Shown piece by piece: positions 2,778 through 63,158 of a stretch of 64,000 nucleotides of DNA. Numbering within the stretch: the stretch's first letter is position 1; each line of letters opens with the position of its first letter. Origin of the DNA: Bacteroides faecalis (GTDB lineage Bacteria > Bacteroidota > Bacteroidia > Bacteroidales > Bacteroidaceae); NCBI RefSeq assembly GCF_003865075.1, contig NZ_BHWB01000003.1, positions 124,001 to 188,000 on the forward strand, given 5' to 3'. The position numbers and the translations under genes were made by a program. The notes under the pieces are model-generated. The model had not been told where the DNA came from. It did no database searches and saw only the letters and a program-made list of their open reading frames with translations.

Positions 2778-5426
2778 TTATTTATTAATCGTTTGTTGTA
2801 CACGGTAAACTTTTCCATTTTTATCCACTCCTTCAATGGTGATAGTCTGAGGAGCTTTGCTATCTGCTGTATAGTATTCTATTGTAGCTTTCCCTTCGTT
2901 ATCGAATTGTAAAGATGGATTCCAGTAAATGGTGGTTCGTAAATCTGATTTCGCGAGGTCCGCTTTTTCAGGAAAGGCGTAAGTCGGATGGTAGAATTCT
3001 ACAGTATCACAATATCCTAATGGGGTATAGGTTGCAATTCCTGGTACTGGTTTTCTAGGAATGTCTTTCGGGTCTTTTAATGTGATGACGATGGCACCTG
3101 CTGCAGCACGAGGACCCAAAATCATTGTATCTGTCTCACGAAGAAGGCTTATGCTCGATATGTTATCCGCAAAAATATCTTTTAATAAGTAATCATCATT
3201 GTCATAAATGATATCATTAATAACGATTGCCGGTTGATCGGCATTATTGCGGATATGTAATTCACTTCCATTTGAAACGGTAACTCCCGGAAGATTGATG
3301 GCAATATCGTAAGCCGTTCGTCCTGCATATTGTTTTAGTCTGTCTCCTTCAAGAGTATAGGTATTGATACCGCCTGTATAAATACTTTTGGAACTGGCTT
3401 TTTCACGCCTGGCAGTTACAAGAACTTCTTTGAGGTTATAAACGCGCATACCTCCCTCCATGTAATATTGGTCACGAGTGTTGAGCAGATAATCCTGCAT
3501 TAAAGTAGGCATTCCATTGTAGAACGGACTCTTATGATATATCTTTGGATATTGGAGTGTATCCATCTCGATTTCAACTCCGGGAAATCCTTTTTGGGTA
3601 CGTGCTTGGACAACAAACGTAGTACTGTCTTTGAATGAGGTGTTGATAACAAACTCTCCCTTTTCGTCAGTAATGGTTGTTGCAAATATGTTTTCTTTGG
3701 GTGCTAAAGCGTAAATAGGTCCCTTTTTTACATTATTGCCAAAGAAACCCCTGATTCGGCCACTAATTGTTTGTCCCTGTTCTATATAATTCTTGAAATT
3801 TAATGAAGGAGGGATAACGAGATTTTTGAGAAGATGTCTTCTCCATCCATGTGTCATCATCAAGAAGTCCAATGCACGAAGTGTTTTAAAATCTTGGTTA
3901 AGGAAATAATATCCAGGATTTTCTACATATCCTTTCAAATCAGAAGTTAGCAGGAGATTTGATAAAATATTATCGGCAAGAGAATCGGGTTGAACTTTCT
4001 GTCGGTCTGTAATGCTAATAGAGAAACTACCAGCAATAGGATTGTTATTATAGTCTTTTCCTGAAATTTGCAGAGATACTTTTTCTTTTTTGCCATAAGA
4101 AGGTTTGTCAGCAACAATCTGCCATTGACCGGATTTTCTGTCGGGAACGAATATTAACCGTTCACTAAGAGTGTTTCCCCTTCCATCGATTAATAAAAAA
4201 TGAGTAATTCCTTCCTGAAACAAACTATCATTCATTCTTCCGAAAGTATTGGGTGGATTGATCGGTTGTAAGATAGTAAGTTTTTCCCGGGTATGGGCAA
4301 CTAAAAATAGTTTTTGAGGCCATTCAGTAGTTTTTGTTTTTTGAATCTCAAAACGTATGTCATCGCGACGATGTGTCATGGAAAGAGCAATACCTTTTTC
4401 TTCTACAGTCGGGAGATTAAAACGTTTCGTGATTCCGTCACTGCTCTTGATCATGGCATAATAAGCGTCCGGAACAATCGTACTCAATGTGAAAACTCCC
4501 ATTCCATCATGCTCTGAACGGAAAGAGCTTAAGGTATCTCCTTTGGAATTAAAGAGAGTACCCTCCACTTCTTTGGAGAAACCATCTGATCCTTGTGCTT
4601 TAAAAGCTACATTTTGATGAGAAATGGCAAGCAAAGCACCCCCCTCCGGGAAGAATGTAACATCGAAATCCTTCCCAAAAACAGGTAGATAGAAAACTTT
4701 CTTATAAATGTATTCCGGATCATCAAACACTACTTCAAGACTGCGGTTAGCACTTGGTTTCAAGTCGGGAAGAGAAATCGATATCAGACCTTTTGAGTCT
4801 GTTTGTTTTTTCCCTTTATCTTTTACTTTTCCGTTTTCAATGTAACGATAACGAATATTGGTGTTAATGAAAGGTTCTTGTGTATTACTGCTGAATCTTA
4901 TTTTTGCAGTATAATGCGTTTCGTCCTCCTTTTGGTATTCTATGGTTGAAATAATTGTATTGTCGATGGAATTTCCGATTTTCAGGTTACATGAATAGAT
5001 GAAGTCAGGATCCTCATTCAACATCCAACTGCTATATCCTCGTAGATAATAATCTCCGGCTGGGAGAGTAGCGGGTAACGTAAAAGCATTATGAAATCCC
5101 AAAGAGTCACGTCGAACCTTTCTGCGTTCCAGAACAGAGTCAGAACGATTGATAAGTTCTGTAATGATGAAGTTGCTTTGAGAGTTATCTTGATGAGTAG
5201 TGGCATTTACAAGATATCCTTTAAACCATATTTTTTCTCCTGCTCCATAATAAGGTTTGTCCAAGTGTAGATATAACTTTTCATTTGGTATTTTTTCCCG
5301 AATATTGAAATTAGCGATAATCGTATCTTGCATTTCTTGTGCTGATAACGATGAGAAGCATAGCAACATTCCAAGAGCTATCTTTATACTGCTTCTTTTG
5401 GTCGAAAAGATGATTTTGCTTGTCAT
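2778..5426 (-). CDS. MG2-domain and TonB-plug-like envelope protein lacking a barrel
   Basis: An 882-residue exported protein. An N-terminal signal peptide ends near residue 30 (LSSLSAQ). A macroglobulin MG2-like segment begins around residue 50 (YLHLDKPYYGAGEKIWFKGY). The middle has carboxypeptidase-regulatory-like beta domains. The C-terminal third contains a plug-like segment (YDIAINLPGVTV, PAIVINDIIYD, GPRAAAGAIVITLKD) as in TonB-dependent receptors, but the chain ends about 100 residues later with no 22-strand barrel. Proteins of this layout are common in Bacteroides and have no firm function. It follows the ABC permease in the same direction with a 14-bp gap. A link to that transporter is inferred from position only. 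Confidence 0.7.
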   Translation of the reverse strand: MTSKIIFSTKRSSIKIALGMLLCFSSLSAQEMQDTIIANFNIREKIPNEKLYLHLDKPYYGAGEKIWFKGYLVNATTHQDNSQSNFIITELINRSDSVLERRKVRRDSLGFHNAFTLPATLPAGDYYLRGYSSWMLNEDPDFIYSCNLKIGNSIDNTIISTIEYQKEDETHYTAKIRFSSNTQEPFINTNIRYRYIENGKVKDKGKKQTDSKGLISISLPDLKPSANRSLEVVFDDPEYIYKKVFYLPVFGKDFDVTFFPEGGALLAISHQNVAFKAQGSDGFSKEVEGTLFNSKGDTLSSFRSEHDGMGVFTLSTIVPDAYYAMIKSSDGITKRFNLPTVEEKGIALSMTHRRDDIRFEIQKTKTTEWPQKLFLVAHTREKLTILQPINPPNTFGRMNDSLFQEGITHFLLIDGRGNTLSERLIFVPDRKSGQWQIVADKPSYGKKEKVSLQISGKDYNNNPIAGSFSISITDRQKVQPDSLADNILSNLLLTSDLKGYVENPGYYFLNQDFKTLRALDFLMMTHGWRRHLLKNLVIPPSLNFKNYIEQGQTISGRIRGFFGNNVKKGPIYALAPKENIFATTITDEKGEFVINTSFKDSTTFVVQARTQKGFPGVEIEMDTLQYPKIYHKSPFYNGMPTLMQDYLLNTRDQYYMEGGMRVYNLKEVLVTARREKASSKSIYTGGINTYTLEGDRLKQYAGRTAYDIAINLPGVTVSNGSELHIRNNADQPAIVINDIIYDNDDYLLKDIFADNISSISLLRETDTMILGPRAAAGAIVITLKDPKDIPRKPVPGIATYTPLGYCDTVEFYHPTYAFPEKADLAKSDLRTTIYWNPSLQFDNEGKATIEYYTADSKAPQTITIEGVDKNGKVYRVQQTINK

Positions 5427-51249: not shown

Positions 51250-52197
51250 ATGATGGAAAATAATAGATTTACCATTTGTGCGATTAATTATATTGCTTCT
51301 TTAAGAAAAGAAGGCCGATACTCTACAGCACACGTATACAAAAATGCAATTCGTTCTTTTACTCAGTTTTGTGGAACACCGTCCGTTGCGTTTTATCAGA
51401 TAAATCGTGAGAATCTGAAACGATATAGTAATTATCTCATTGCCCGTAAATTGAAACTTAATACAATTTCTACTTATATGCGTATGCTGCGATGTATTTA
51501 CAATCAGGGAGTTGATACAGGTCAGGCTCCTTATATATATCGTTTATTTCATGATGTCTTTACAGGAGTGGAGACTCGGCAAAAGAAAGCACTTCCTGTG
51601 CACGAACTTCGTACCTTATTATATAAGGATCCTCAATCCGAATCTCTCCGTCGTACTCAAGCTATTGCCAGCCTATTGTTTCAATTCTGTGGTATGCCTT
51701 TTAGCGATCTTGTTCATTTGGAGAAAACAAACTTGAAACAGGGCATCCTTAAATATAATCGTATGAAGACGGGTACTCCTATGTGTCTTGAGATTTTGGA
51801 TACTGCGACAGAGGCTATTACTTTGCTTCGCAATAAACATTCTACTCACCATTCTGATTATCCCGATTATCTTTTATGTGTGTTAAGTGGTAATTATAAA
51901 AGAAATGATGTAAGAGGTTATATTGAGTATCAATCTGCATTGCGTTGTTTTAATAACCAATTGAAACGTTTGGCAAAGCGGTTATGTATTTATTCCTCTG
52001 TTTCTTCGTATACCTTTCGTCATTCCTGGGCTACTACGGCCAAGTATCGGGGAGCTTCTATTGAAATGATTAGTGAGTCATTAGGTCATAAATCTATTAA
52101 AACTACACAGATCTATTTAAAAGGATTTGAATTAGAAGAAAGAACAAGAATAAATCGTATGAATTATTCTTACGTAATAAATTCTAGGGTAATGTAG
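51250..52197 (+). CDS. Tyrosine recombinase next to the invertible capsule promoter
   Basis: 315 residues. An N-terminal SAM-like core-binding domain (FTQFCGTPSVAFYQINRENLKRY...) precedes the catalytic domain: Arg in LRRTQAIASLLFQFCG, SYTFRHSWATTAKYRG (box II, with Tyr in place of the usual first His, as in many Bacteroides enzymes), and LGHKSIKTTQIYLKG with the nucleophilic Tyr. Enzymes of this kind invert nearby DNA in Bacteroides capsule loci. The identical 29-bp inverted repeats start 38 bp after its stop, so it most likely flips that segment. Confidence 0.88.
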   Translation: MMENNRFTICAINYIASLRKEGRYSTAHVYKNAIRSFTQFCGTPSVAFYQINRENLKRYSNYLIARKLKLNTISTYMRMLRCIYNQGVDTGQAPYIYRLFHDVFTGVETRQKKALPVHELRTLLYKDPQSESLRRTQAIASLLFQFCGMPFSDLVHLEKTNLKQGILKYNRMKTGTPMCLEILDTATEAITLLRNKHSTHHSDYPDYLLCVLSGNYKRNDVRGYIEYQSALRCFNNQLKRLAKRLCIYSSVSSYTFRHSWATTAKYRGASIEMISESLGHKSIKTTQIYLKGFELEERTRINRMNYSYVINSRVM

Positions 52198-52234: not shown

Positions 52235-52263
52235 TTATCCGTTACTTCATAGGTAACGGATAA
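52235..52263 (+). repeat. Left recombination site (29-bp inverted repeat, IRL)
   Basis: Identical to the reverse complement of 52467-52495. Internally it has 11-bp arms TTATCCGTTAC/GTAACGGATAA around a 7-bp asymmetric centre TTCATAG. Confidence 0.95.
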
Positions 52264-52273
52264 GAATTCGCTG

Positions 52274-52306
52274 CAAAGATAGATAAAATAGTAAATAGAA
52301 AACAAA
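52274..52306 (-). promoter_or_regulatory. Consensus promoter inside the invertible segment
   Basis: On the minus strand TTTG (52303-52306), 21-bp spacer, TATCTTTG (52274-52281): exact TTTG-N19-21-TAnnTTTG. Start predicted near 52267, just inside the left repeat. Confidence 0.85.
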
Positions 52307-52466
52307 TAAAAAAAATCTTTTTTTCTTTTTTCTTAAAATATATAACAAGAAAATACCCCCAGACATGAAGAATACCGTTCGTGTCAAAGAATTTTCCATT
52401 GTTTGAATGTTGAGGAAATCTACTATGTATCAGCAAAGACTCTTCTGACATCTGATACTAGCCTAA

Positions 52467-52495
52467 TTATCCGTTACCTATGAAGTAACGGATAA
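52467..52495 (-). repeat. Right recombination site (29-bp inverted repeat, IRR)
   Basis: Exact inverted copy of 52235-52263; ends 17 bp before the upxY start codon, so after inversion the transcript would cross it. Confidence 0.95.
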
Positions 52496-52512
52496 ACATG
52501 GGGTAAAAATAG

Positions 52513-53106
52513 ATGATTCTTAACAAAAATGACAATTCTCAAGTTCTGCCGGCAAATGTGACTGGCAGAAGCGTAGCACACTCAAAACGTTGGTTGGTGG
52601 CTGTAGTGCGTATTTACCACGAGAAAAAGACGAGCGAACGTCTAACGAAAATGGGAATTGAAAATTTCCTTCCTATTCAACAAGAATACCATCAATGGAG
52701 TGATCGTCGTAAAGTGATCGATCGTGTTTTACTTCCGATGATGATTTTTGTCCATGTCGATCTTCAGGAGCAGAAAGAAGTCCTGACTCTGTCAGCTGTG
52801 ACCCGCTATATGGTATTACGTGGTGAAAGTGCTCCGGCAGTGATTCCCGATGAACAAATGTTACGTTTTAAGTTCATGCTCGATTATTCGGAAGAAACGA
52901 TTAGTATGAGTTCCTCACCGCTGTCACCAGGTGAAAAGATTCGTGTAATTAAAGGTCCTTTGGCTGGATTGGAAGGTGAGTTGGTGACGGTTAATGGCAA
53001 GTCTAAAGTTGCCGTCCGTTTAACGATGTTGGGATGTGCTTTTGTCGATATACCCGTAGGTTGCGTGGAATCTATTGAGATGGAAAATGAACATGGAATA
53101 AAGTAG
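52513..53106 (+). CDS. UpxY-type (NusG paralogue) capsule transcription antiterminator
   Basis: 197 residues. NusG N-terminal domain (RWLVAVVRIYHEKKTSERLTKM, FLPIQQEYHQWSDRRK, VLLPMMIFVHVD) and a C-terminal KOW domain (PGEKIRVIKGPLAGLEGELV). UpxY proteins bind the leader of their own capsule operon and let RNA polymerase read through to the end. It is the first gene after the invertible promoter, which is the standard position. Which capsule letter applies is unknown. Confidence 0.92.
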   Translation: MILNKNDNSQVLPANVTGRSVAHSKRWLVAVVRIYHEKKTSERLTKMGIENFLPIQQEYHQWSDRRKVIDRVLLPMMIFVHVDLQEQKEVLTLSAVTRYMVLRGESAPAVIPDEQMLRFKFMLDYSEETISMSSSPLSPGEKIRVIKGPLAGLEGELVTVNGKSKVAVRLTMLGCAFVDIPVGCVESIEMENEHGIK

Positions 53107-53125
53107 AGTAATAGTGATTGGGGAT

Positions 53126-53494
53126 ATGGGGAATATGCTATTACAAGAAAAAATAGACAATCTGTACAGCTTGGCAGATCGTTTTCTTCACATTGGTGAT
53201 CAGAATGGTTATGTATATGCTGATGACCTTTCTCTTCTTAATAAAAGCATTCATATTTTAATCAATGAATTATACCCTCAGCGAGGTGTGACTTTAGAGC
53301 AGGAAGCTGCTTTATGCTTAGCTTTGTTGATGGGATATAGTGTGTCGATGTATGCTAATTGGGAAGACGAATCTAAAAAGCAAGCCATATTGGCTCGTTC
53401 CTGGAAAATTCTTCCAACTCTTTCCCCTTCTCAGACTAAAGAACGTTTATCGACACTTTGTAATGAATTGAATCACTCATTTGAAATCAACTGA
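53126..53494 (+). CDS. UpxZ-like inhibitor of heterologous antitermination
   Basis: About 122 residues. Three in-frame starts are possible: GTG 53114, ATG 53126 and ATG 53135; 53126 is chosen tentatively. Soluble and helical, no motif beyond the small UpxZ-like pattern (LQEKIDNLYSLADRFLHIG, EQEAALCLALLMGYSVSMYA). In B. fragilis UpxZ proteins block antitermination by UpxY of other loci, so that one capsule dominates. Assignment rests on position after upxY and general resemblance. Confidence 0.75.
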   Translation: MGNMLLQEKIDNLYSLADRFLHIGDQNGYVYADDLSLLNKSIHILINELYPQRGVTLEQEAALCLALLMGYSVSMYANWEDESKKQAILARSWKILPTLSPSQTKERLSTLCNELNHSFEIN

Positions 53495-53512: not shown

Positions 53513-55927
53513 ATGAAAATACAAAACCTATTTCGCTTATTTCTATTAGTTCTAATGTTGGGTAGTAGCCCTTCTCTGATGGCTCAGACTATGAGTGACC
53601 AACAAGTCCTTGAATATGTCAAAGAGGGTATCAAACAAGGCAAGGAGCAGAAACAAATGGCCGCAGAATTAGCCCGTAAGGGTGTAACCAAGGAACAAGC
53701 CATTCGAGTAAAAGAATTATACGAGAAACAGAATAATGTAAACACTTCCAATGCTACCGGTACAGATATAAATGAATCTCGTCTTCGCGAAGAGATGAAG
53801 GAAAACACTTCCGACATGTTGGAAGACCATCCCAGTACTCAAGATTTATCCCGCGAAGATCAAGTATTCGGACGCAATATCTTTAATACCCGGAATTTGA
53901 CCTTTGAACCTAGCGTCAATCTCGCTACCCCTTCCAATTATCGTTTGGGCCCCGGCGATGAAGTCATTATTGATATCTGGGGCGCCAGCCAGAATACCAT
54001 CCGTCAAGCTATCTCTCCTGACGGAACGATTAATATCCAGAAGATCGGTCCTGTCTATCTGAGTGGTCTGACCGTTTCTGAAGCCAATGATTATCTGAAG
54101 AAATCGTTGAATAAAATCTATAACGGCCTTAATAACGCTACCGATCCGAGTTCCGATATTCGCCTGAGCCTGGGCAATATCCGTACCATCCAGATAAATA
54201 TCATGGGAGAAGTCGTTCAACCCGGTACCTACGCCCTTTCCGCTTTCTCCACAGTCTTCCACGCCCTCTATCGTGCAGGCGGAGTCAGTGACATCGGCAG
54301 TCTGCGTAATGTCCAACTAGTACGTAATGGCAAAAAACTTACCACCATCGACGTCTACGAATTCATCATGAAAGGCAACGCCCAAGATGACATCCGTCTT
54401 CAGGAAGGCGATGTTGTCATCGTTCCTGCCTATGACGTTCTGGTAAAGCTAAGCGGTAAAGTAAAACGCCCGATGCGTTTTGAAATGAAGCCAGACGAAC
54501 CCCTTTCCACCTTAATCAAATACGCCGGTGGCTTTGATGCCGACGCCTATACCCGTTCTTTGCGTGTTGTACGCCAGAATGGTGAGGAATACGAAGTAAA
54601 TACAGTCAAAGATATCGATTATAGCATCTATAAGATGCGTAACGGTGATGTAGTAACCGCCGAGGCCATCCTGAACCGCTTCACCAACAAGCTTGAAGTT
54701 CGCGGTGCAGTTTATCGTCCCGGTATCTACCAGCTGAGCGGTACCCTGAATACCATTCGTGAACTGGTGAATGAAGCCCAAGGTCTGACCGGTGATGCTT
54801 TCCTGAACCGTTCAGTTTTATACCGTCAGCATGATGATTTAACCACCGAAGTATTACCCATCGATATCAAGTCCATCATGGACGGCACTTCTCCTAATAT
54901 CGCCTTGCAAAAGAACGATATCCTATATATCCCCAGCATTCATGATTTGTCCGACCGAGGAAATATCACCGTTCATGGTGAAGTCGCCAACCCCGATTCC
55001 TATCCTTATGCCGATAACATGACCTTAGAGGACCTGATCATTCAAGCAGGTGGTTTACGCGAGGCCGCTTCAACCGTTCGCGTTGATGTAACCAGACGCA
55101 TCAAGAATCCCCGTAGTACGGCCGATAACGACACCATTGGCCAAATGTTCTCTTTTTCCTTGAAAGACGGTTTTGTCATCGACGGTCAGCCCGGTTTTGT
55201 TCTTCAGCCCTATGATGAAGTCTATGTCCGTCGCAGTCCGGGTTATCAGGCACAACAGAATGTGAAGATTGAGGGCGAAATCCTTTTTGGTGGTACTTAT
55301 GCCTTGACTAGCCGCGAAGAACGTCTCTCTGATTTGGTGAATAAGGCCGGTGGTGCTACAAATTACGCTTACTTACGTGGTGCAAAGCTTGCTCGTGTAG
55401 CTAATGCCGATGAGAAAAAACGTATGGGAGATGTAATTCGTCTGATGCGTCGCCAGTTAGGAGAGGAGATGATGGATTCTCTGGGAATAGATGTTGATAG
55501 TACTTTTACCGTAGGTATTGATTTGGAAAGTGCCCTTCGTAATCCTCAAAGCAGTTCCAATATTGTTTTACGAGAAGGCGATGTCATTTCCATTCCGAAG
55601 AATACCAATACAGTCACTATTAATGGTGCTGTGATGGTTCCTAATACCGTTTCTTATTTGGAAGGAAAAAATATTGATTATTATTTGAATCAAGCTGGCG
55701 GCTATTCGGATAATGCTAAGAAAAGTAAGAAATTCATTGTCTACATGAACGGAGAGGTGACCCGGGTAAAGGGTAATGCTAAGAAACAGATCGAGCCCGG
55801 CTGTGAGATCATAGTTCCGAGTAAATCGAAGAAACGTACTAATGTAGGAGAAATACTGGGTTATGCCACTTCTTTCAGTTCTCTGGGTATGATGATTGCC
55901 TCTATTGCCAACCTGATAAAGAAATGA
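53513..55927 (+). CDS. Wza-like polysaccharide export outer-membrane protein (SLBB repeats)
   Basis: 804 residues with a signal peptide (SSPSLMAQ near residue 25). After a helical EF/Arg-rich segment (about 30-110) comes a Poly_export domain (YRLGPGDEVIIDIWGASQ, ISPDGTINIQKIGPVYLSGL) and then repeated SLBB domains (INIMGEVVQPGTY, LSGKVKRPMRF, LEVRGAVYRPGIY, ITVHGEVANPDSY, VKIEGEILFGGTY, VTINGAVMVPNTV), at least six copies. It should form the capsule export channel with the Wzz-like partner. Length, about twice E. coli Wza, is normal for Bacteroides. Confidence 0.93.
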   Translation: MKIQNLFRLFLLVLMLGSSPSLMAQTMSDQQVLEYVKEGIKQGKEQKQMAAELARKGVTKEQAIRVKELYEKQNNVNTSNATGTDINESRLREEMKENTSDMLEDHPSTQDLSREDQVFGRNIFNTRNLTFEPSVNLATPSNYRLGPGDEVIIDIWGASQNTIRQAISPDGTINIQKIGPVYLSGLTVSEANDYLKKSLNKIYNGLNNATDPSSDIRLSLGNIRTIQINIMGEVVQPGTYALSAFSTVFHALYRAGGVSDIGSLRNVQLVRNGKKLTTIDVYEFIMKGNAQDDIRLQEGDVVIVPAYDVLVKLSGKVKRPMRFEMKPDEPLSTLIKYAGGFDADAYTRSLRVVRQNGEEYEVNTVKDIDYSIYKMRNGDVVTAEAILNRFTNKLEVRGAVYRPGIYQLSGTLNTIRELVNEAQGLTGDAFLNRSVLYRQHDDLTTEVLPIDIKSIMDGTSPNIALQKNDILYIPSIHDLSDRGNITVHGEVANPDSYPYADNMTLEDLIIQAGGLREAASTVRVDVTRRIKNPRSTADNDTIGQMFSFSLKDGFVIDGQPGFVLQPYDEVYVRRSPGYQAQQNVKIEGEILFGGTYALTSREERLSDLVNKAGGATNYAYLRGAKLARVANADEKKRMGDVIRLMRRQLGEEMMDSLGIDVDSTFTVGIDLESALRNPQSSSNIVLREGDVISIPKNTNTVTINGAVMVPNTVSYLEGKNIDYYLNQAGGYSDNAKKSKKFIVYMNGEVTRVKGNAKKQIEPGCEIIVPSKSKKRTNVGEILGYATSFSSLGMMIASIANLIKK

Positions 55928-55934
55928 TGAAGTG

Positions 55935-57032
55935 ATGGAAGAACAGAATAAACAAAATATGACCGATGAGTCGGAAATCGACTTGATGGAGATTTTACGT
56001 AAGATCATCAAGATTCGCAGGACGCTTTATAAGGCCGCAGGTATCGGACTGATCTTTGGCATTATTATAGCGTTAAGTGTTCCCAAGCACTATACGGTGG
56101 AAGTAACTTTGTCCCCCGAGATGGGCAGTTCCAAAGGTAACAGTGGTCTCGCCTCGATGGCTGCCTCGTTTTTGGGAGCTGGGGCGACAATGAGTGATGG
56201 GGTGGACGCCTTGAATGCCTCCCTCTCTTCAGACATCGTTTCTTCGACCCCTTTTCTGTTGGAGCTTTTGTCAATGAATGTTCCCGTTGATGGTGAAAAG
56301 ATTACTTTCGGATCTTATTTGGACACTCAGTCCACTCCTTGGTGGAGTTATATTATAGGTTTTCCGGGCATGGCAATCAGCGGGGTACGGTCATTGTTCT
56401 CGAACGAGGATGAGACTGATGGCATGAGAAACGGTGATTCCGGTGCTATTGAGCTTACTAAAGATGAGAGTAAGAAAATCATCTCTCTCAAGAAGAGTAT
56501 AACCGCCATGATGGATAAGAAGACTTCCATAACCGATGTTTCTGTTACTCTGCAGGACCCTAAGGTCGCTGCCGTCGTAGCGGATTCAGTTGTTCGTAAG
56601 TTACAAGAATACATCATCGGTTACCGCACCTCAAAGGCTAAGGAGGACTGCGCCTATTTAGAGAGATTGTTTAAGGAACGTCAGGAGGAATATTATGCTG
56701 CACAGAAAAAATATGCCGAGTATGTGGATACCCACGACAACTTGATCCTTCAGAGTGTTCGTGCTGAGCAAGAACGCCTACAGAACGACATGAGCCTTGC
56801 ATATCAGGTTTACAGCCAGGTGGCTAACCAGCTTCAGGTGGCGCGCGCCAAGGTACAAGAAGAAAAACCGGTGTTCGCTGTAGTGGAACCTGCAGTTATA
56901 CCACAGGAATCTTCAGGTACCAGCAAAAAGACCTATGTGACTCTCTTTGTCTTTTTCTTTGTGGCTGTTGTCTGTGGCTGGAAACTTTTTGCAGAAGAAT
57001 TCTGGGATAAATTAAAGCGTGAATTTGTGTAG
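55935..57032 (+). CDS. Wzz-like chain-length determinant/polysaccharide co-polymerase
   Basis: 365 residues from the ATG at 55935 (MEEQNKQNMTDESEIDLMEI). Two membrane helices, about 35-55 and 335-355, flank a periplasmic coiled-coil domain, the Wzz/PCP-1 layout. There is no kinase domain. It sets capsule chain length. The start lies 7 bp past the exporter stop, so the two are probably translationally coupled. Confidence 0.88.
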   Translation: MEEQNKQNMTDESEIDLMEILRKIIKIRRTLYKAAGIGLIFGIIIALSVPKHYTVEVTLSPEMGSSKGNSGLASMAASFLGAGATMSDGVDALNASLSSDIVSSTPFLLELLSMNVPVDGEKITFGSYLDTQSTPWWSYIIGFPGMAISGVRSLFSNEDETDGMRNGDSGAIELTKDESKKIISLKKSITAMMDKKTSITDVSVTLQDPKVAAVVADSVVRKLQEYIIGYRTSKAKEDCAYLERLFKERQEEYYAAQKKYAEYVDTHDNLILQSVRAEQERLQNDMSLAYQVYSQVANQLQVARAKVQEEKPVFAVVEPAVIPQESSGTSKKTYVTLFVFFFVAVVCGWKLFAEEFWDKLKREFV

Positions 57033-57077
57033 CGGCTGTATCGTGTAGAAGATAACAAGGGGAATATAGATACAATT

Positions 57078-59003
57078 ATGAAGAAATCATTGGAGAAATT
57101 TTTGCATTACACTAGTCGCAATTTCTTTAACTGCTGGCTTATTCTTGGCGTGGATACGTTGATTGCGGGTTTGTGCACGCTGTCGGCTTTTATCGGCATT
57201 TACTACATTGCGGGTATCGGTTGGAACGCCTTTCAGCTTTTGCAAGTTATAGCGGTCTCCCTGCTGTCCAGTATCGTCGGTGACTTGTTTTTCAACACCT
57301 ATCGCAATACGATCCGTTATTCAGAGATAAAAGACCTGTGGCGTATTACCTGCAGCGTCTTGTTCAAGACGTGCTGTCTCGCTGTTTACGTGTTTTTTCT
57401 TTTGCAGGGAGATAAGTTGTTCAGCAGCCAGAATTTGGTGTTTGTCATCGTTGACGGCATGCTTACCCTGATCGCCCTGATTGGGTTGCGTGTCGCGGTG
57501 ATCGTTACATACGAGTCTCTGATTGGCATGGTTCGTAAGACCGACATGCGTGTGTTGATCTATGGTACCGGCGACAAGAGCGTCGCACTGAAGACCCGTC
57601 TCCGTAACAGCTCGCATTACCGGATATCGGGTTTCTGCGTTTACAGTCGTGAGCGCAGCCGCAGGATCCTTGCCGATTCCCAGGTGTATTCCTTCTCGGG
57701 AAAGTCGGATTTTGAAATACTGATCAAGAAACATCAAATTCAGGGAATCTTGTTTGCGCGCTACGACTCCATTAAGGATGAGGAGAGCCGTCTTCTTGAA
57801 TATTGTAAGAGCGCGGGTGTTAAAACCCTGATCGCTCCCTCGATCAGTGAGGCCGATGTTGACGGCCTTTTTCATCAGTTCGTTCGTCCAATCCGTATCG
57901 AGGACCTTTTGGGGCGTGAGGAAATCAAGATTAACATGCGCGAAATTGCGGTCGAATATTGTAACAAGACAGTGTTAGTAACTGGTGCGGCCGGAAGTAT
58001 CGGTAGCGAGCTGTGTCGTCAGTTGGCTCAGATAGGTGTCCGTAAGCTAATTCTATTCGACTCTGCCGAGAGTCCTCTTCACAACGTCCGTTTGGAGTTC
58101 GAGAAGAAATATCCTGAGATTGACTTCGTTCCTGTGATTGGTGACGTTCGTGTGGCCCAGCGCCTCCGTATGGTCTTCGACTTGTATCATCCACAGATTG
58201 TTTTCCATGCCGCTGCTTACAAGCATGTTCCCCTGATGGAAGAGAATCCCTGCGAGGCTGTTTATGTCAACGTCATCGGTTCGCGCCAGGTTGCTGACAT
58301 GGCTGTCGAGTACGATGCTGAGAAGATGATCATGGTCTCTACGGACAAGGCGGTCAATCCCACGAATGTGATGGGAGCTTCTAAACGTCTTGCTGAGATT
58401 TATGTTCAGAGTCTGGGCACAGCAATAAAAGAAAGAAGAGTAAAAGGTAATACGAAGTTCATCACCACCCGTTTCGGTAACGTTTTGGGTAGTAACGGTT
58501 CGGTGATACCTCGCTTTAAGGAGCAGATCGAGAACGGTGGCCCTGTGACTGTCACCCATCCCGATATCATCCGTTATTTTATGACCATTCCCGAGGCTTG
58601 TCGTCTGGTCATGGAGGCTGGCATGATGGGTGAGGGGAACGAGATTTTCCTCTTTGAGATGGGTGAACCCATCAAGATTGTAGATTTGGCGACTCGAATG
58701 ATTGAGCTGGCCGGTTATCGTGCGGGAGAGGATATTAAGATTGAGTTTACAGGCTTAAGACCGGGAGAGAAATTATATGAGGAGTTATTAAGTACTGAGG
58801 AGAACACGCTTCCCACTTCAAACAGGAAGATTAAGATCGCCAAGGTCCGTCATTATGAATATGAGGACGTATTAGGAGTTTACTCCGAGTTTGAGGATCT
58901 AGCCCGTAATGTGAGGATCATGGATACGGTCGCCCTGATGAAGAGGATCGTTCCGGAGTTCATCTCCAAGAATTCGAAGTTTGAGGTGCTGGATAAAAAG
59001 TAG
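57078..59003 (+). CDS. FlaA1/CapD/WbpM-type membrane nucleotide-sugar epimerase/dehydratase
   Basis: 641 residues. Four membrane helices in the first ~150, a CoA-binding-like Rossmann region, then the SDR domain from about 295: LVTGAAGSIGSELCRQLAQIG for NAD(P), VSTDKAVNPTNVMGASKRLAE with the Met-x3-Lys pair that replaces Tyr-x3-Lys in this group, and GLRPGEKLYEEL. Homologues make UDP-2-acetamido-2,6-dideoxy-hexoses. It closes the GC-richer part of the locus and is followed by a scar. Confidence 0.9.
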   Translation: MKKSLEKFLHYTSRNFFNCWLILGVDTLIAGLCTLSAFIGIYYIAGIGWNAFQLLQVIAVSLLSSIVGDLFFNTYRNTIRYSEIKDLWRITCSVLFKTCCLAVYVFFLLQGDKLFSSQNLVFVIVDGMLTLIALIGLRVAVIVTYESLIGMVRKTDMRVLIYGTGDKSVALKTRLRNSSHYRISGFCVYSRERSRRILADSQVYSFSGKSDFEILIKKHQIQGILFARYDSIKDEESRLLEYCKSAGVKTLIAPSISEADVDGLFHQFVRPIRIEDLLGREEIKINMREIAVEYCNKTVLVTGAAGSIGSELCRQLAQIGVRKLILFDSAESPLHNVRLEFEKKYPEIDFVPVIGDVRVAQRLRMVFDLYHPQIVFHAAAYKHVPLMEENPCEAVYVNVIGSRQVADMAVEYDAEKMIMVSTDKAVNPTNVMGASKRLAEIYVQSLGTAIKERRVKGNTKFITTRFGNVLGSNGSVIPRFKEQIENGGPVTVTHPDIIRYFMTIPEACRLVMEAGMMGEGNEIFLFEMGEPIKIVDLATRMIELAGYRAGEDIKIEFTGLRPGEKLYEELLSTEENTLPTSNRKIKIAKVRHYEYEDVLGVYSEFEDLARNVRIMDTVALMKRIVPEFISKNSKFEVLDKK

Positions 59004-59020
59004 ATTAAAAACAAAGAAAC

Positions 59021-59092
59021 ATGAAAATAACGGTAGCAGGCACCTGTTATGTAGGCTTGCCCATGGTAACGTTACGTAAGCGTCCAAAATGA
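59021..59092 (+). pseudogene. 5' remnant of a UDP-glucose/UDP-ManNAc dehydrogenase gene
   Basis: Twenty-three codons reading MKITVAGTCYVGLPMVTLRK and then a stop. This is the start of the Rossmann domain of Ugd-type enzymes (usual pattern VAGTGYVGL; the Gly is Cys here). The rest of the gene is missing and the following DNA is an insertion-sequence remnant. Confidence 0.7.
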
Positions 59093-59147
59093 CGTATTGC
59101 TTCAAGCATAAATAGCCAGATCTTTACTGCTGTATCAGCTTATAAAT

Positions 59148-59582
59148 ATGTATAGTAGCAGTGATTATGAGCGTCTGTTCATCCGCTACAAGGCAGAGAC
59201 TGTTCCACAGGGAAAATCTATTCAGAATTTCTGCTTTAAGATAAAGTACCTTACAATATCTTTCACAAATGGTATAAGGATACGTGACATTTGTTGGTTC
59301 CTGTTCAGGTCGAAGACCGTACGGATTTGGAATCTGTCCTGTGGCTTCCGTTATTCAGGAAGTCCCGAAAAATACGGGACTGTGTCCTTTGAAGATAATG
59401 ATAGACATCTGTATGAGCAACGGGATGCATATACAGCAGCAGAACCTAAGCTATCAAAGTCTGAGAAGTTTGGTGTAGAAACTGGAGGGGCTATGCTGAG
59501 CATTATAGGAATGACCCGTTTCTATTACCTGAGGAACTTCCACTACCTTCGTTGCAAGAACAGTCGGGTGTTCTCCATCTAA
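59148..59582 (+). pseudogene. Broken IS66-type accessory genes (orfA-tnpB)
   Basis: Reading across frames gives orfA pieces YERLFIRYKAETVPQGKSIQ, then after a shift VPYNIFHKWYKDT (stop) HLLVPVQVEDRTDL, then IDICMSNGMHIQQQNLSYQS with a stop before KLEGLC ending at 59499. The next gene starts at 59493 (MLSIIGMTRFYYLRNFHYLR), overlapping by 7 bp as in intact elements, and stops after 29 codons at 59582. Both are dead. No IS66 transposase core remains. Confidence 0.7.
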
Positions 59583-59674
59583 AAGAATATTGGCTTATCA
59601 TTGGAACTATAAGAATATGGTATATAATAGGATAAAAAATTCCATTGTAGACAGTATATAAATCAATAAGCATT

Positions 59675-59773
59675 ATGCGTGTTTTTAAATCTTGTGCAGT
59701 TCTTTTAGGTTTGAATATGTTCTCTTGTGCTTTAATGACTTATTTAAAAAAGTTCTTTTGTTTATATGGATAA
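59675..59773 (+). CDS. Short hydrophobic open frame, doubtful
   Basis: A 32-codon frame (MRVFKSCAVLLGLNMFSCAL...) just before the epimerase gene. It could be the remnant of a membrane protein or a leader; no family recognised and no good ribosome site. Confidence 0.2.
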   Translation: MRVFKSCAVLLGLNMFSCALMTYLKKFFCLYG

Positions 59774-59780
59774 TAGTTAG

Positions 59781-60674
59781 ATGGGCATGAAGAATACGAA
59801 AACAGCAATAATCGGAGCCAATGGTTACATTGGTAAACATCTTGAGTTCTATCTAAAAAGGATGGGATTAGATCCTACGTGTTACGATATACAAGATGAT
59901 AGTCGTGAAAATTATAAGCAGGTTGATATAACAGACAAAGAGTCTGTTAAAAATATTGATATCAATGTAGATTATATCTATATGTTTGCAGGTCTTACTG
60001 GTACTTATGCTGGATTTGATAAGTATGAAACTTACGTTAGCATTAATGAGATTGGATTGCTGAATCTTCTTGATGCTATACGAAATTCGGAGAAAAAACC
60101 TAAGATAGTGTTTCCTTCAACTCGATTAATATATAAGGGAGTTGATAAACCGCTTAAGGAAGAGGATGAGAAAGAGACGAAGACTCTATATGCTATCAAT
60201 AAGTTAGCATGCGAGAGTATTCTCTATGCTTACAACAAAAGTTTTGATATTCCATACACAATTTTTCGTATCTGTATTCCATATGGCAATATGCTTTCAA
60301 CAGACTATAGTTTTGGAACAATTGGTTTCTTTATCAAACAGGCTAAAGCAGGTAAAGATATAGCTCTTTATGGAGGTGGAGATGCCAAACGTACTTTTAC
60401 TCATATGGAAGATCTTTGCTACCAAATAGTACAGGGATCAATGAGTAAAGATAGTAATGGCGAAATTTATAATATTGGTGGTCAGACTCTTTCTTTGAGA
60501 GAAGCAGCCGAATTTGTTGCCAAAAAATTTAATACCAATGTAGTTGCAGTGGAATGGCCGGAAAAAGATTTTCGTATAGAAAGCAATCATACATACTTTG
60601 ATGATACAAAAATTCGCTCATTGTTATGCATTGGTGAGTACAAACAATTACAAGAATTTTCAAAAGACTTATAA
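59781..60674 (+). CDS. NAD(P)-dependent epimerase/4-ketoreductase (extended SDR)
   Basis: 297 residues from 59781 (a second ATG lies two codons on). IIGANGYIGKHLEFYLKRMG binds NAD(P), with PSTRLIYKG and YAINKLACE giving the Ser/Tyr-x3-Lys active site. AT-rich, unlike the genes before 59 kb. With the two genes after it, it may reduce or epimerise a 4-keto-2-deoxysugar nucleotide; this role is inferred from context. Confidence 0.82.
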   Translation: MGMKNTKTAIIGANGYIGKHLEFYLKRMGLDPTCYDIQDDSRENYKQVDITDKESVKNIDINVDYIYMFAGLTGTYAGFDKYETYVSINEIGLLNLLDAIRNSEKKPKIVFPSTRLIYKGVDKPLKEEDEKETKTLYAINKLACESILYAYNKSFDIPYTIFRICIPYGNMLSTDYSFGTIGFFIKQAKAGKDIALYGGGDAKRTFTHMEDLCYQIVQGSMSKDSNGEIYNIGGQTLSLREAAEFVAKKFNTNVVAVEWPEKDFRIESNHTYFDDTKIRSLLCIGEYKQLQEFSKDL

Positions 60675-60679
60675 ACTCG

Positions 60680-62119
60680 ATGAAAACAAGAAATATAGAG
60701 GACGTGCAATTAGATTTCCTTGTTTCAGCACTTAGCCATGGCAATTTCATCAGTACTACTGATATTCTTATGTGGATGAAGCAACAGAATGAAGATGTTG
60801 TTAGTAATGTCAAGCAGATTCCAATCGAACAACTTAAAGGGTGGAACTATCGTGATGATCGTATTTGTCATGATAGCGGTAAATTCTTTAGTATTGATGG
60901 TATTCACATCATGACTAATTATCGTAATGTACCAGAATGGGATCAACCTATCATCAATCAACCTGAAATTGGATTTCTTGGCTTTATAGTAAAGAAGTTC
61001 AATGGGGTAATGCATTTTTTGATGCAGGCTAAAATTGAACCCGGAAACTTGAATATTGTTCAACTTTCCCCAACTCTTCAGGCTACAAGAAGTAATTATA
61101 CACGTGTCCATGGGGGTAAATCTCCTAATTATTTGGAGTATTTTAACGGTGAGAAAGAAGTATATGTATTGGTTGACCAATTGCAGTCAGAGCAAGGTGC
61201 TCGCTTCCTTCATAAGCGTAATAGAAATATTATTGTGGAGATTAATGAGGATGAGGAAATCTCTGTAAAGGATGGTTTCATATGGGTATCTCTTGGTCAG
61301 ATAAAAGAGTTACTACGTTATCCTAATGTTGTAAATATGGATAGCCGTACTGTTATTTCTTGCATTAAGTTTGGTAACTATTCAGAACAGTCGCTTAAAT
61401 TACTTTCTTCTGTGAAGAACATGTATGGAATTGAGAACGATAAACCTGATTTATTTCTGTATTCAGTTTTGAGTAGCGATAACCATCTTCACGAATTGCA
61501 AGATATTATCCAATGGGTGACGTCACTTAAATTTAAATACGAACTTGGTGTGAATTCTATCGGTATTTCAAAAATGAAGTATTGGATTTATGACGGAAAT
61601 GTTTTGCGTCATGAAGATAATAAGTATTTTGATGTGATTGGGGTACGGGTTGAAATTGGTAATCGTGAGGTCGTATCTTGGGATCAGCCTATGGTACGAT
61701 CTGCTCAGGAAGGACTCATGGGCTTTATCGTGAAGAAGATAAATGGTATCTATCACTTCTTGGTTCAGGCAAAATTAGAAGCAGGCAATTTTGATATAGT
61801 GGAAATGGCTCCAACGGTACAGTGTTTGACTGGAAACTACAGAAATGGTAAAAACGAATATACTATACCTTATTTGGAACAGGTACTAAATGCGCCCAAT
61901 GAGAATATTTGGTATAGCAGTTACCAGAGTGAAGAAGGTGGACGTTTCTTTCAAGAACAGAACCTGAACATAATTGTAGAGGTTGGTGACGAATTCCCTA
62001 TAGAAGTAGAGGAAAACTACTGTTGGATGACACTCAACCAGATGCTTTCATTTGTTACATATAATAATTACTTAAATATTGCAGCTCGCAGCCTCTTGTC
62101 TGCTGTCAGTTTCTATTAA
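60680..62119 (+). CDS. NDP-hexose 2,3-dehydratase-like protein
   Basis: 479 residues built of two homologous halves: EPGNLNIVQLSPTLQ near 120 and EAGNFDIVEMAPTVQ near 360, QSEQGARFLHKRNRNIIVEI near 169 and QSEEGGRFFQEQNLNIIVEV near 412, and WDQP + GF(I/M)VKK in both. This duplicated layout and the PT-Q and SEGGRF patterns are those of EvaA/TylX3 2,3-dehydratases, which remove the C2 hydroxyl of NDP-4-keto-6-deoxyglucose. It starts 5 bp after the previous gene and 10 bp before the oxidoreductase. Confidence 0.82.
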   Translation: MKTRNIEDVQLDFLVSALSHGNFISTTDILMWMKQQNEDVVSNVKQIPIEQLKGWNYRDDRICHDSGKFFSIDGIHIMTNYRNVPEWDQPIINQPEIGFLGFIVKKFNGVMHFLMQAKIEPGNLNIVQLSPTLQATRSNYTRVHGGKSPNYLEYFNGEKEVYVLVDQLQSEQGARFLHKRNRNIIVEINEDEEISVKDGFIWVSLGQIKELLRYPNVVNMDSRTVISCIKFGNYSEQSLKLLSSVKNMYGIENDKPDLFLYSVLSSDNHLHELQDIIQWVTSLKFKYELGVNSIGISKMKYWIYDGNVLRHEDNKYFDVIGVRVEIGNREVVSWDQPMVRSAQEGLMGFIVKKINGIYHFLVQAKLEAGNFDIVEMAPTVQCLTGNYRNGKNEYTIPYLEQVLNAPNENIWYSSYQSEEGGRFFQEQNLNIIVEVGDEFPIEVEENYCWMTLNQMLSFVTYNNYLNIAARSLLSAVSFY

Positions 62120-62129
62120 AGATTAATAT

Positions 62130-63158
62130 ATGATTAAAATAGGCATTATTTGCCCCTCAGAAATAGCTTTACGTAGATTTATGCCCGCTCTCCAAAAAGT
62201 GCAGGGTGTGTTGTTTTCCGCTATAGGCATTGCCTCTCCTAAAGAATGGTTTGGGGATTTGGAGAATGTCACAGCTGAACAAATTGAAGAACAACAATTT
62301 CGAGAGCTTGCTAAAGCTAGTGCTTTTGTTGATCAATATGGTGGCGAGATTATTGTGGGTTATGAAACACTGGTATCATCTGATAAGATTGATGCAATTT
62401 ATATTCCGCTCCCCCCAGCACTACACTATAAATGGGCTAAATTAGCTCTTCAGAATAGTAAACATGTGTTTGTGGAGAAGCCTTCTACTACAACTTTGGC
62501 AGATACAGATGATTTGATTTCAATAGCTTCAGAAAAAGAACTTGTTTTGCATGAGAATTATATGTTTATTTATCACTCTCAGTTAGAAGAAATTCAGTCA
62601 GTAGTGAAGAAAGGTGAGATAGGAGAAGTGCGTTTGTACCGCATTACATTTGGCTTTCCTCGACGTGCAGCTAATGATTTTCGTTATAATAAAACATTGG
62701 GAGGTGGAGCGCTATTAGATGCAGGTGGTTACTGTTTGAAGTATGCTAATTGGCTCCTTGGAGGTGATGCCCATGTGATTTCAGCTCAAACTAATTATTT
62801 AGAAGGTTTTGAGGTTGACATGTATGGTTCTGCTATTATGGCTGATTCTGATGGGCATATTGCACAACTTGCTTTCGGTATGGATAACGACTATCGTTGT
62901 GATATTGAGATTTGGGGGAGCAATGGAACCATCACCAGTGGTCGTATTTTGACTGCACCAGCGGGCTTTGTACCTACATATAGTATAAAGAAAAATCAAA
63001 ACATTGAAATTCGTCAGCTTTCTGCAGACGATACATTCTTCAAATCAATTCAGCGATTTATATCTTGTATAGAGAATGCTAGTGTTCGTATAGAAGAGTA
63101 TAATCTTTTAAAAAAGCAAGAAGAGCTAGTTGAAGAATTTAAATATTTATGTAAATAA
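62130..63158 (+). CDS. Gfo/Idh/MocA oxidoreductase, probable NDP-3-ketosugar reductase
   Basis: 342 residues. N-terminal Rossmann fold (IKIGIICPSEIALRRFMPAL), EKPSTTTLADTDDLI (EKP motif with the catalytic Lys) and C-terminal GGGALLDAGGYCLKYANWLLGG. In deoxysugar pathways an enzyme of this family (TylC1, EvaE-adjacent type) reduces the 3-keto product of the 2,3-dehydratase. Adjacency here supports that role. A strong AAGGAG-like ribosome site for the next gene lies right after it. Confidence 0.85.
   Translation: MIKIGIICPSEIALRRFMPALQKVQGVLFSAIGIASPKEWFGDLENVTAEQIEEQQFRELAKASAFVDQYGGEIIVGYETLVSSDKIDAIYIPLPPALHYKWAKLALQNSKHVFVEKPSTTTLADTDDLISIASEKELVLHENYMFIYHSQLEEIQSVVKKGEIGEVRLYRITFGFPRRAANDFRYNKTLGGGALLDAGGYCLKYANWLLGGDAHVISAQTNYLEGFEVDMYGSAIMADSDGHIAQLAFGMDNDYRCDIEIWGSNGTITSGRILTAPAGFVPTYSIKKNQNIEIRQLSADDTFFKSIQRFISCIENASVRIEEYNLLKKQEELVEEFKYLCK

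Follow-up and report, generated by a model that had tools for sequence, protein, structure and literature searches.

The best overall explanation of the DNA analysed here, a 64,000-nucleotide stretch of the Bacteroides faecalis genome (the window), and one that we consider likely as a whole, is an invertible promoter for a capsule locus of the UpxY/UpxZ kind, lying in the OFF orientation, with its right-hand recombination site doubling as a hairpin in the leader of the capsule message. The parts of this reading carry different weights: the switch and its OFF state are close to certain, the conserved leader hairpin is very probable, and for the loading of UpxY at that hairpin the chances appear evenly balanced on the sequence evidence. 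Inversion in this strain, transcription, and the role of UpxY as the reader of the hairpin are what we infer from the arrangement described below.

Architecture of the Switch and Its Locus

The features of the locus are collected in Table 1. A preliminary description of this DNA had proposed perfect 29-bp inverted repeats around a gene-free interior of 203 bp, and both parts of that claim hold, because the two repeats are 29 nt each, 100% complementary, and 203 nt apart, and the interior contains no ORF of 80 aa or more, the cut-off used. Each repeat is also a palindrome in itself, of the form TTATCCGTTAC-TTCATAG-GTAACGGATAA, in which 11-bp arms surround an asymmetric 7-bp core (TTCATAG/CTATGAA); two arms around a short core is the usual shape of a tyrosine recombinase site. 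With up to three mismatches allowed, this palindromic pattern occurs at only two places in the 64-kb window, against 0.00 in 100 shuffles.

The preliminary description had also placed a minus-strand promoter in the interior, facing the recombinase and away from upxY, and this was borne out: the pattern TTTG-N21-TAnnTTTG has a single exact match in the window, both strands considered, and it is the one listed in Table 1. Its expectation of 0.57 per shuffled 64 kb translates into very few in 203 bp. No rightward TAnnTTTG was found between the repeats, again as previously noted, and inverted repeats flanking a promoter are the arrangement of phase-variable capsule loci. Inversion would indeed place the promoter ahead of upxY, but the distance given for it, about 45 bp, has to be corrected: in the inverted form the -7 element falls at 52449-52456, 56 bp from the upxY ATG at 52513, which gives a leader of about 50 nt.

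Profile matches agree with the genes named earlier, i.e., a recombinase, upxY, and capsule genes, and they extend to upxZ. The order, with upxY and upxZ first and polysaccharide genes following, is that of a capsule locus; the chain-length protein of the operon scores just under the Pfam cut-off, and a 144-aa ORF at 59148-59582 gave no profile match. The recombinase carries SAM-like and catalytic phage integrase domains, as in invertons.

Table 1. Features of the capsule promoter switch and of the adjoining genes (positions in the window)
Feature	Position	Strand	Remarks
Tyrosine recombinase, 315 aa, likely local invertase	51250..52197	+	PF13102 2.6e-17, PF00589 1.2e-13
Left inverted repeat (recombination site L)	52235..52263	+	11-bp arms; core TTCATAG at 52246-52252
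Invertible interior	52264..52466	.	203 bp
Bacteroides-type promoter TTTG-N21-TATCTTTG	52274..52306	-	directed away from upxY = OFF
Right inverted repeat (recombination site R)	52467..52495	+	core CTATGAA at 52478-52484; putative ON-state leader hairpin
GGGGTAAA element	52500..52507	+	7 nt past 8-bp hairpin arm; 13 nt before upxY ATG
upxY, specialised NusG-family antiterminator, 197 aa	52513..53106	+	NF033644 170 bits, cut-off 100
upxZ, antagonist of non-cognate UpxY	53114..53494	+	PF06603 128 bits
Capsule operon start	53513..63158	+	export, chain-length, Polysacc_synt_2, NDP-hexose 2,3-dehydratase, GFO/IDH/MocA-type sugar dehydrogenase
ORF in capsule operon	59781..60674		

Orientation of Homologous Switches

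The census of homologous switches beside upxY is a lower bound of at least 64, with DNA searches that scored three candidates per genome. Among 84 loci with an upxY match, 49 have a site pair and 35 do not, the latter including 16 recombinase-less loci discussed below and L159, whose leader is masked. The set of 64 is made up of these 49 and of 15 loci found with a covariance model (also discussed below), identical cores being required. Here and in the following sections, the loci and cells counted are related to one another and are not independent events.

In every one of the 49 pairs, for which one mismatch was allowed, the two cores are identical, as expected of inverton sites, and the distance from site to ATG equals 23 in 52 of the 64 switches. 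Orientation was called from T[AG]NNTTTG, a motif resembling the -7 element, at a distance of 14-18 bp from the site, and 62 of 64 switches have it; a switch was scored as both ways when a -7 match occurs in two directions. By this measure, 53 switches are OFF, seven ON, two both ways, and two neither; both orientations are found at homologous loci, and OFF only in this assembly. On contig 93 of a relative, G104, the block homologous to window positions 52235-52495 is reversed between two colinear flanks, a natural inversion with its ends within the repeats. The OFF phase-variable capsule promoter of the preliminary description is thus upheld by the census and by this inverted block. In G030, an 801-bp block around the switch is 95% identical to that of the window.

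The strong bias to OFF among assembled genomes would follow if each cell has only a few of its several capsules switched on. As for the cores, TTCTTAG occurs in 53 of 64 switches and TTCATAG in three, the window and G030 having the latter, and such one-base differences could prevent recombination between neighbouring switches. Finally, seven loci (L103, L106, L108, L113, L114, L122, and L192) have a related recombinase and repeats with a gene other than upxY downstream; their leaders contain a worn GTAAAAATAG and no G-run, as if they came from a upxY leader.

The Right-Hand Repeat as a Probable Leader Hairpin

The right repeat lies between the segment promoter and upxY, and therefore any message that runs from the segment into upxY contains it. 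This repeat folds as a hairpin, the fold of the leader having an energy of -14.5 kcal/mol, and in 62 of the 64 switches its 8-bp arm is followed by an exact GGGGTAAA, at 7 nt in 59, 8 nt in two, and 6 nt in one; the two switches without the exact element are L129 and L148.

Recombination needs like sites, so that both outer arms would be expected to be about equally constrained, yet they are not. Relative to TCCGTTAC, mismatches in the outer arm average 1.48 per locus on the recombinase side (L) and 0.30 on the upxY side (R), and the arm is changed in 54 of 64 loci at L and in 18 of 64 at R. When the loci are reduced to 28 distinct arm combinations, L is worse in 20, R in two, and six are tied (binomial p 1.2e-4, for rows that are not independent). 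The extra constraint on the upxY-side arm fits a second function, and proximity to the start codon could add to it. In 12 of 64 switches the right outer arm reads GTAACAGA, which breaks one pair in nine of them, and in the other three (L109, L191, and L193) the pair is restored by the other arm.

Three further ideas were dropped. An excess of G-U over A-C departures failed as a mark of the switch right sites (A-C in 11 cells, G-U in seven), the promoter-proximal inner arm does not pair better than the distal one (463 versus 461 Watson-Crick cells of 480), and an extra outer stem (TTCAT/ATGAA) seen in some folds is not general. The first two of these outcomes and the pairs broken by GTAACAGA count against a leader hairpin, as do three recombinase-less leaders that do not fit the common register (L116, L117, and L121).

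Leaders of Recombinase-less Loci

Sixteen related upxY loci have no recombinase match and no partner site, and keep a hairpin at the same place; recombinase-less here means that no tblastn match to the window recombinase was found in the stretch fetched, about 1.5-2 kb upstream. Before the hairpin, these loci have a promoter-like -7 element in the ON direction (that of L119 is off consensus and was placed by hand), and their leaders have a mean folding-energy z of -3.0. The best 7-bp stem near the G-run has all seven pairs in 13 of 16 leaders and six in L117 and L158, while L121 reaches seven in another register only.

Pairs were counted over 12 distinct rows, with L110 and L145, whose arms are identical, counted once, and with L116, L117, and L121 left out on account of another register or indels. 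A standard pair is formed in 95 of 96 cells, the one broken pair being in L158. Both sides are altered in five of the eight pairs, as opposed to a shuffle mean of 1.2 and to one shuffle in 500 that is as high; the covariation score of the 12 rows is reached by none of 500 shuffles, and slid versions of the arms pair in 29-62%. Seventeen cells depart from Watson-Crick pairing; written as in the message, 16 of them are G-U and the remaining one is U-C, while A-C does not occur. Departures of the G-U and not of the A-C kind favour the message strand over a DNA palindrome. Stems are full also in L141 and L143, around loops of 4 and 5 nt, respectively.

The exact GGGGTAAA is found in 10 of the 16 leaders, the other six having AGGGT, AGGCT, or GGGGACA in its place. 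The distance from arm to G-run is 6-7 nt in all 13 in-register leaders, and that from G-run to ATG, which depends on the assigned start codons, is 8-13. A conserved leader structure is therefore found before the operon, as is typical of UpxY, RfaH, and LoaP leaders. A search of Rfam with 12 loci that have these leaders returned no matching family, with only a tRNA in L142 above the gathering score.

A different type of leader, with no matching recombinase, lies upstream of upxY in L168, L170, L171, and L175. By eye, it is a long GC-rich hairpin with a T-rich end, perhaps a terminator that UpxY overrides.

Distribution and Specificity of the Leader Element

The covariance model was trained on nine recombinase-less leaders only, the right sites of switches being excluded from training. 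On the window, it matches the right site over its full length at 44.5 bits, and the left site at 20-24 bits over the hairpin part only. In 157 genomes of the genus it gave 91 matches, distributed over 23 genomes, at E values up to 0.01 with strict filters. Twenty further stretches with model matches have upxY directly downstream in 15 cases and not in five; two of these stretches, L177 and L196, cover the places of L014 and L106 a second time. Two weak matches in 195 genomes outside the genus were at about chance level and were rejected, and in these searches the element appears limited to part of the genus. A palindrome of the Parabacteroides type (PMC12118408), searched for the same dual-site design in other genera, had no matches in 198 genomes of the order, a result that weighs neither for nor against recurrence of the design.

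The strongest competitor to a reading by UpxY is that hairpin and G-run form an ordinary 5' element serving translation or message stability. A 5' hairpin can stabilise a message, the leader is short with its G-run near the ATG, and the G-run itself varies in six of the recombinase-less leaders. Against it stand the ORFs of the window: GGGGTAAA precedes only one of 32 that were checked (ATG ORFs picked from 89), and the motifs GGAG, AGGA, and GAGG are absent from the 25 nt upstream of all 32 starts. The spacing of the G-run is also steadier toward the hairpin than toward the ATG. Of the 14 switch rows that lack a full upxY, just three (L055, L013, and L014) have GGGGTAAA at the customary 7 nt, each of them ahead of a short truncated ORF; in L058 (recombinase 37% identical) its letters run out of the arm itself, and the other ten rows are without it. 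We regard an ordinary 5' element as the less probable of the two readings.

The three exceptions deserve a separate mention. In L055 (G000 contig 32, ~4736-5150), L013, and L014, upxY is seemingly cut to a very short ORF, with hairpin and GGGGTAAA intact and with the recombinase and both sites still present.

Expression State and Other Capsule Loci of the Genome

The capsule of the window is predicted to be silent in this clone. It would not be if, in the OFF form, transcripts begun inside the recombinase gene or farther upstream continued into upxY, and the layout has room for this, as recombinase and upxY are on the same strand, 315 bp apart, and a scan found no rightward terminator-like sites between them, which makes low read-through possible. 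In the B. fragilis PSA locus, however, expression of the first gene fell as more of the population was OFF (PMC10939037, from excerpts of the article), and a capsule kept on by read-through seems unlikely.

The Bacteroides faecalis genome (5.77 Mb in 53 contigs) has five UpxY loci above the family cut-off. Related recombinases adjoin same-family site pairs at C8:53469/53689 and C4:142009/142229, which have core TTCTTAG and upxY, and at C32:11478/11748, with core TTCTTAG and no full upxY; two more distant pairs, C8:189969/190254 and C2:595499/595781, carry TTCGTAG as their core. In the window switch and in those of C8:53469, C4, and C32, the promoter faces the recombinase, i.e., OFF. No pair of inverted repeats was found over the stretch scanned at another upxY locus, C3:490831 (read in L057), and this clone may therefore express that capsule. 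In L056 (G000 contig 2), two different perfect inverted-repeat pairs stand in tandem at 3047-3257 and 3415-3638, upstream of another, distant UpxY gene; they have leftward -7 matches inside, and the whole looks like a double switch.

Origin of the Recombinase-less Leaders

A further alternative concerns the recombinase-less hairpins, which might be decaying remnants of a lost recombination site with no function of their own. These loci have lost the second site, their upxY genes group as sisters with those of switches, and the stem region is interrupted by indels in L117 and L121, all of which would suit decay. Arms that differ among loci and nonetheless pair, with changes on both sides of most pairs, and full stems around loops of altered length speak against it, as does the tree of 76 UpxY rows, in which the recombinase-less state has at least two separate origins on well supported branches. 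We judge mere remnants to be quite improbable, and a conserved hairpin remains the preferred reading of these leaders.

The Recombinase

In the alignment, the recombinase keeps KT, RHSWAT, LGH, and Y, which we take to be the later catalytic motifs. The position assigned to the first catalytic arginine has Cys, and the protein accordingly lacks the full residue set of a tyrosine recombinase. The subfamily has Cys at this position, or in some members Ser or Gly, and no Arg among the 42 of 47 aligned rows listed; loss of the first arginine would thus be a subfamily trait, common to rows beside ON switches. A search of Protein Data Bank sequences with the recombinase matched only the catalytic region of XerA and IntI4. 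IntDOT of CTnDOT is also said to be without the first catalytic Arg.

This subfamily comprises the recombinases of the window, L018-L021, L053, L054, L092, L111, and L112, and switches beside them were found in both orientations. The other invertase-like recombinases of the genome (L022-L030) have Arg there, in RGM or RGL. The idea that the recombinase is dead for want of its first arginine was dropped, since relatives are without Arg too, also beside ON switches.

A dead switch, fixed OFF and no longer inverting, might be read from the missing arginine and from the presence of the OFF orientation only in this assembly and in the nearest relative found, G030, but it is very improbable with a recombinase that is open and full-length, perfect repeats, identical cores, and ON switches such as L092 and L112 beside recombinases that have lost the same arginine.

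Proposed Mechanism

We infer a dual use of the right site, as a recombination site and as a leader hairpin, with UpxY loading as the probable role of the latter. The tyrosine recombinase encoded upstream would pair the two palindromic sites by binding their four arms, as its family suggests, and strand exchange in the identical 7-bp cores would flip the segment, 261 bp in all. Once ON, the promoter would fire rightward, the message would start about 50 nt before upxY, and its first structured part would be the hairpin of the right site, formed by the time the polymerase is past the G-run. With the hairpin ending 6-7 nt ahead of the G-run, GGGGTAAA would lie within the transcription bubble of a polymerase whose pause the hairpin stabilises, a geometry that would suit loading; the paused polymerase would be held while UpxY loads, GGGGTAAA being the DNA element exposed at the pause, and after loading the long capsule operon would be read through. 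Saba et al. reportedly described in 2024 that UpxY acts at the paused polymerase with the aid of nascent RNA hairpins. In the OFF form, the promoter would face the recombinase gene and fire toward its 3' end, without giving rise to the upxY-side hairpin; that this leftward firing damps the recombinase gene is a speculation.

In more general terms, in a large group of Bacteroides switches the operon-side recombination site may also be a nascent-RNA hairpin that loads the operon's own antiterminator, so that a flip would join promoter and hairpin in one step, and recombinase-less loci would keep the hairpin for the job that remains. We lean neither for nor against this generalisation.

Comparison with Known Systems

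In B. xylanisolvens, the repeat GTTACTTCTTAGGTAACGGA flanks inverting segments of 289-290 bp before capsule operons, and more copies of it stand before other upxY genes; the repeats are noted there as containing palindromes, and the words hairpin and leader do not occur in that article (PMC12118408). The two systems are alike in having a same-family palindromic repeat, a recombinase upstream, upxY downstream, and a promoter in the segment, and they differ in the core (TTCATAG here, TTCTTAG there), in the segment, which has 261 bp here, and in that inversion is a prediction here. The capsule promoters of B. fragilis are similar in their inverted repeats around a promoter and in having upxY and upxZ first, but there one global invertase serves seven loci, whereas here a tyrosine recombinase adjoins the switch (PMC12632263, in part). 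A polysaccharide locus of P. vulgatus also has an invertible promoter before upxY, for which both orientations were seen by PCR; there the local recombinase is broken, its place probably being taken by another in trans, whereas the recombinase is open here (PMC13114119, in part).

As a sister repeat and inverting promoters are already published, the switch as such is ordinary, one more phase-variable capsule of a kind already studied in depth. A site with dual use would, if real, tie DNA inversion to UpxY antitermination, two control layers that are usually described apart, and would explain both why the upxY-side site is better conserved than its twin and why a matching hairpin is found at fixed capsule promoters. 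In the titles, abstract openings, and excerpts of the open full-text literature that were searched, none describes a recombination site of these loci that doubles as a leader hairpin.

Short leader elements, made of a hairpin and conserved bases, before an operon that is controlled by a NusG paralog are themselves familiar, as exemplified by ops for RfaH, the dfn hairpin for LoaP, and the UpxY leaders of B. fragilis. RfaH binds the paused complex through a specific sequence of the nontemplate DNA, and UpxY contacts the upstream duplex (PMC12691694, in part). The locus described here resembles all of these in the position of its element, and differs from them in that the putative leader hairpin is also a recombination site.
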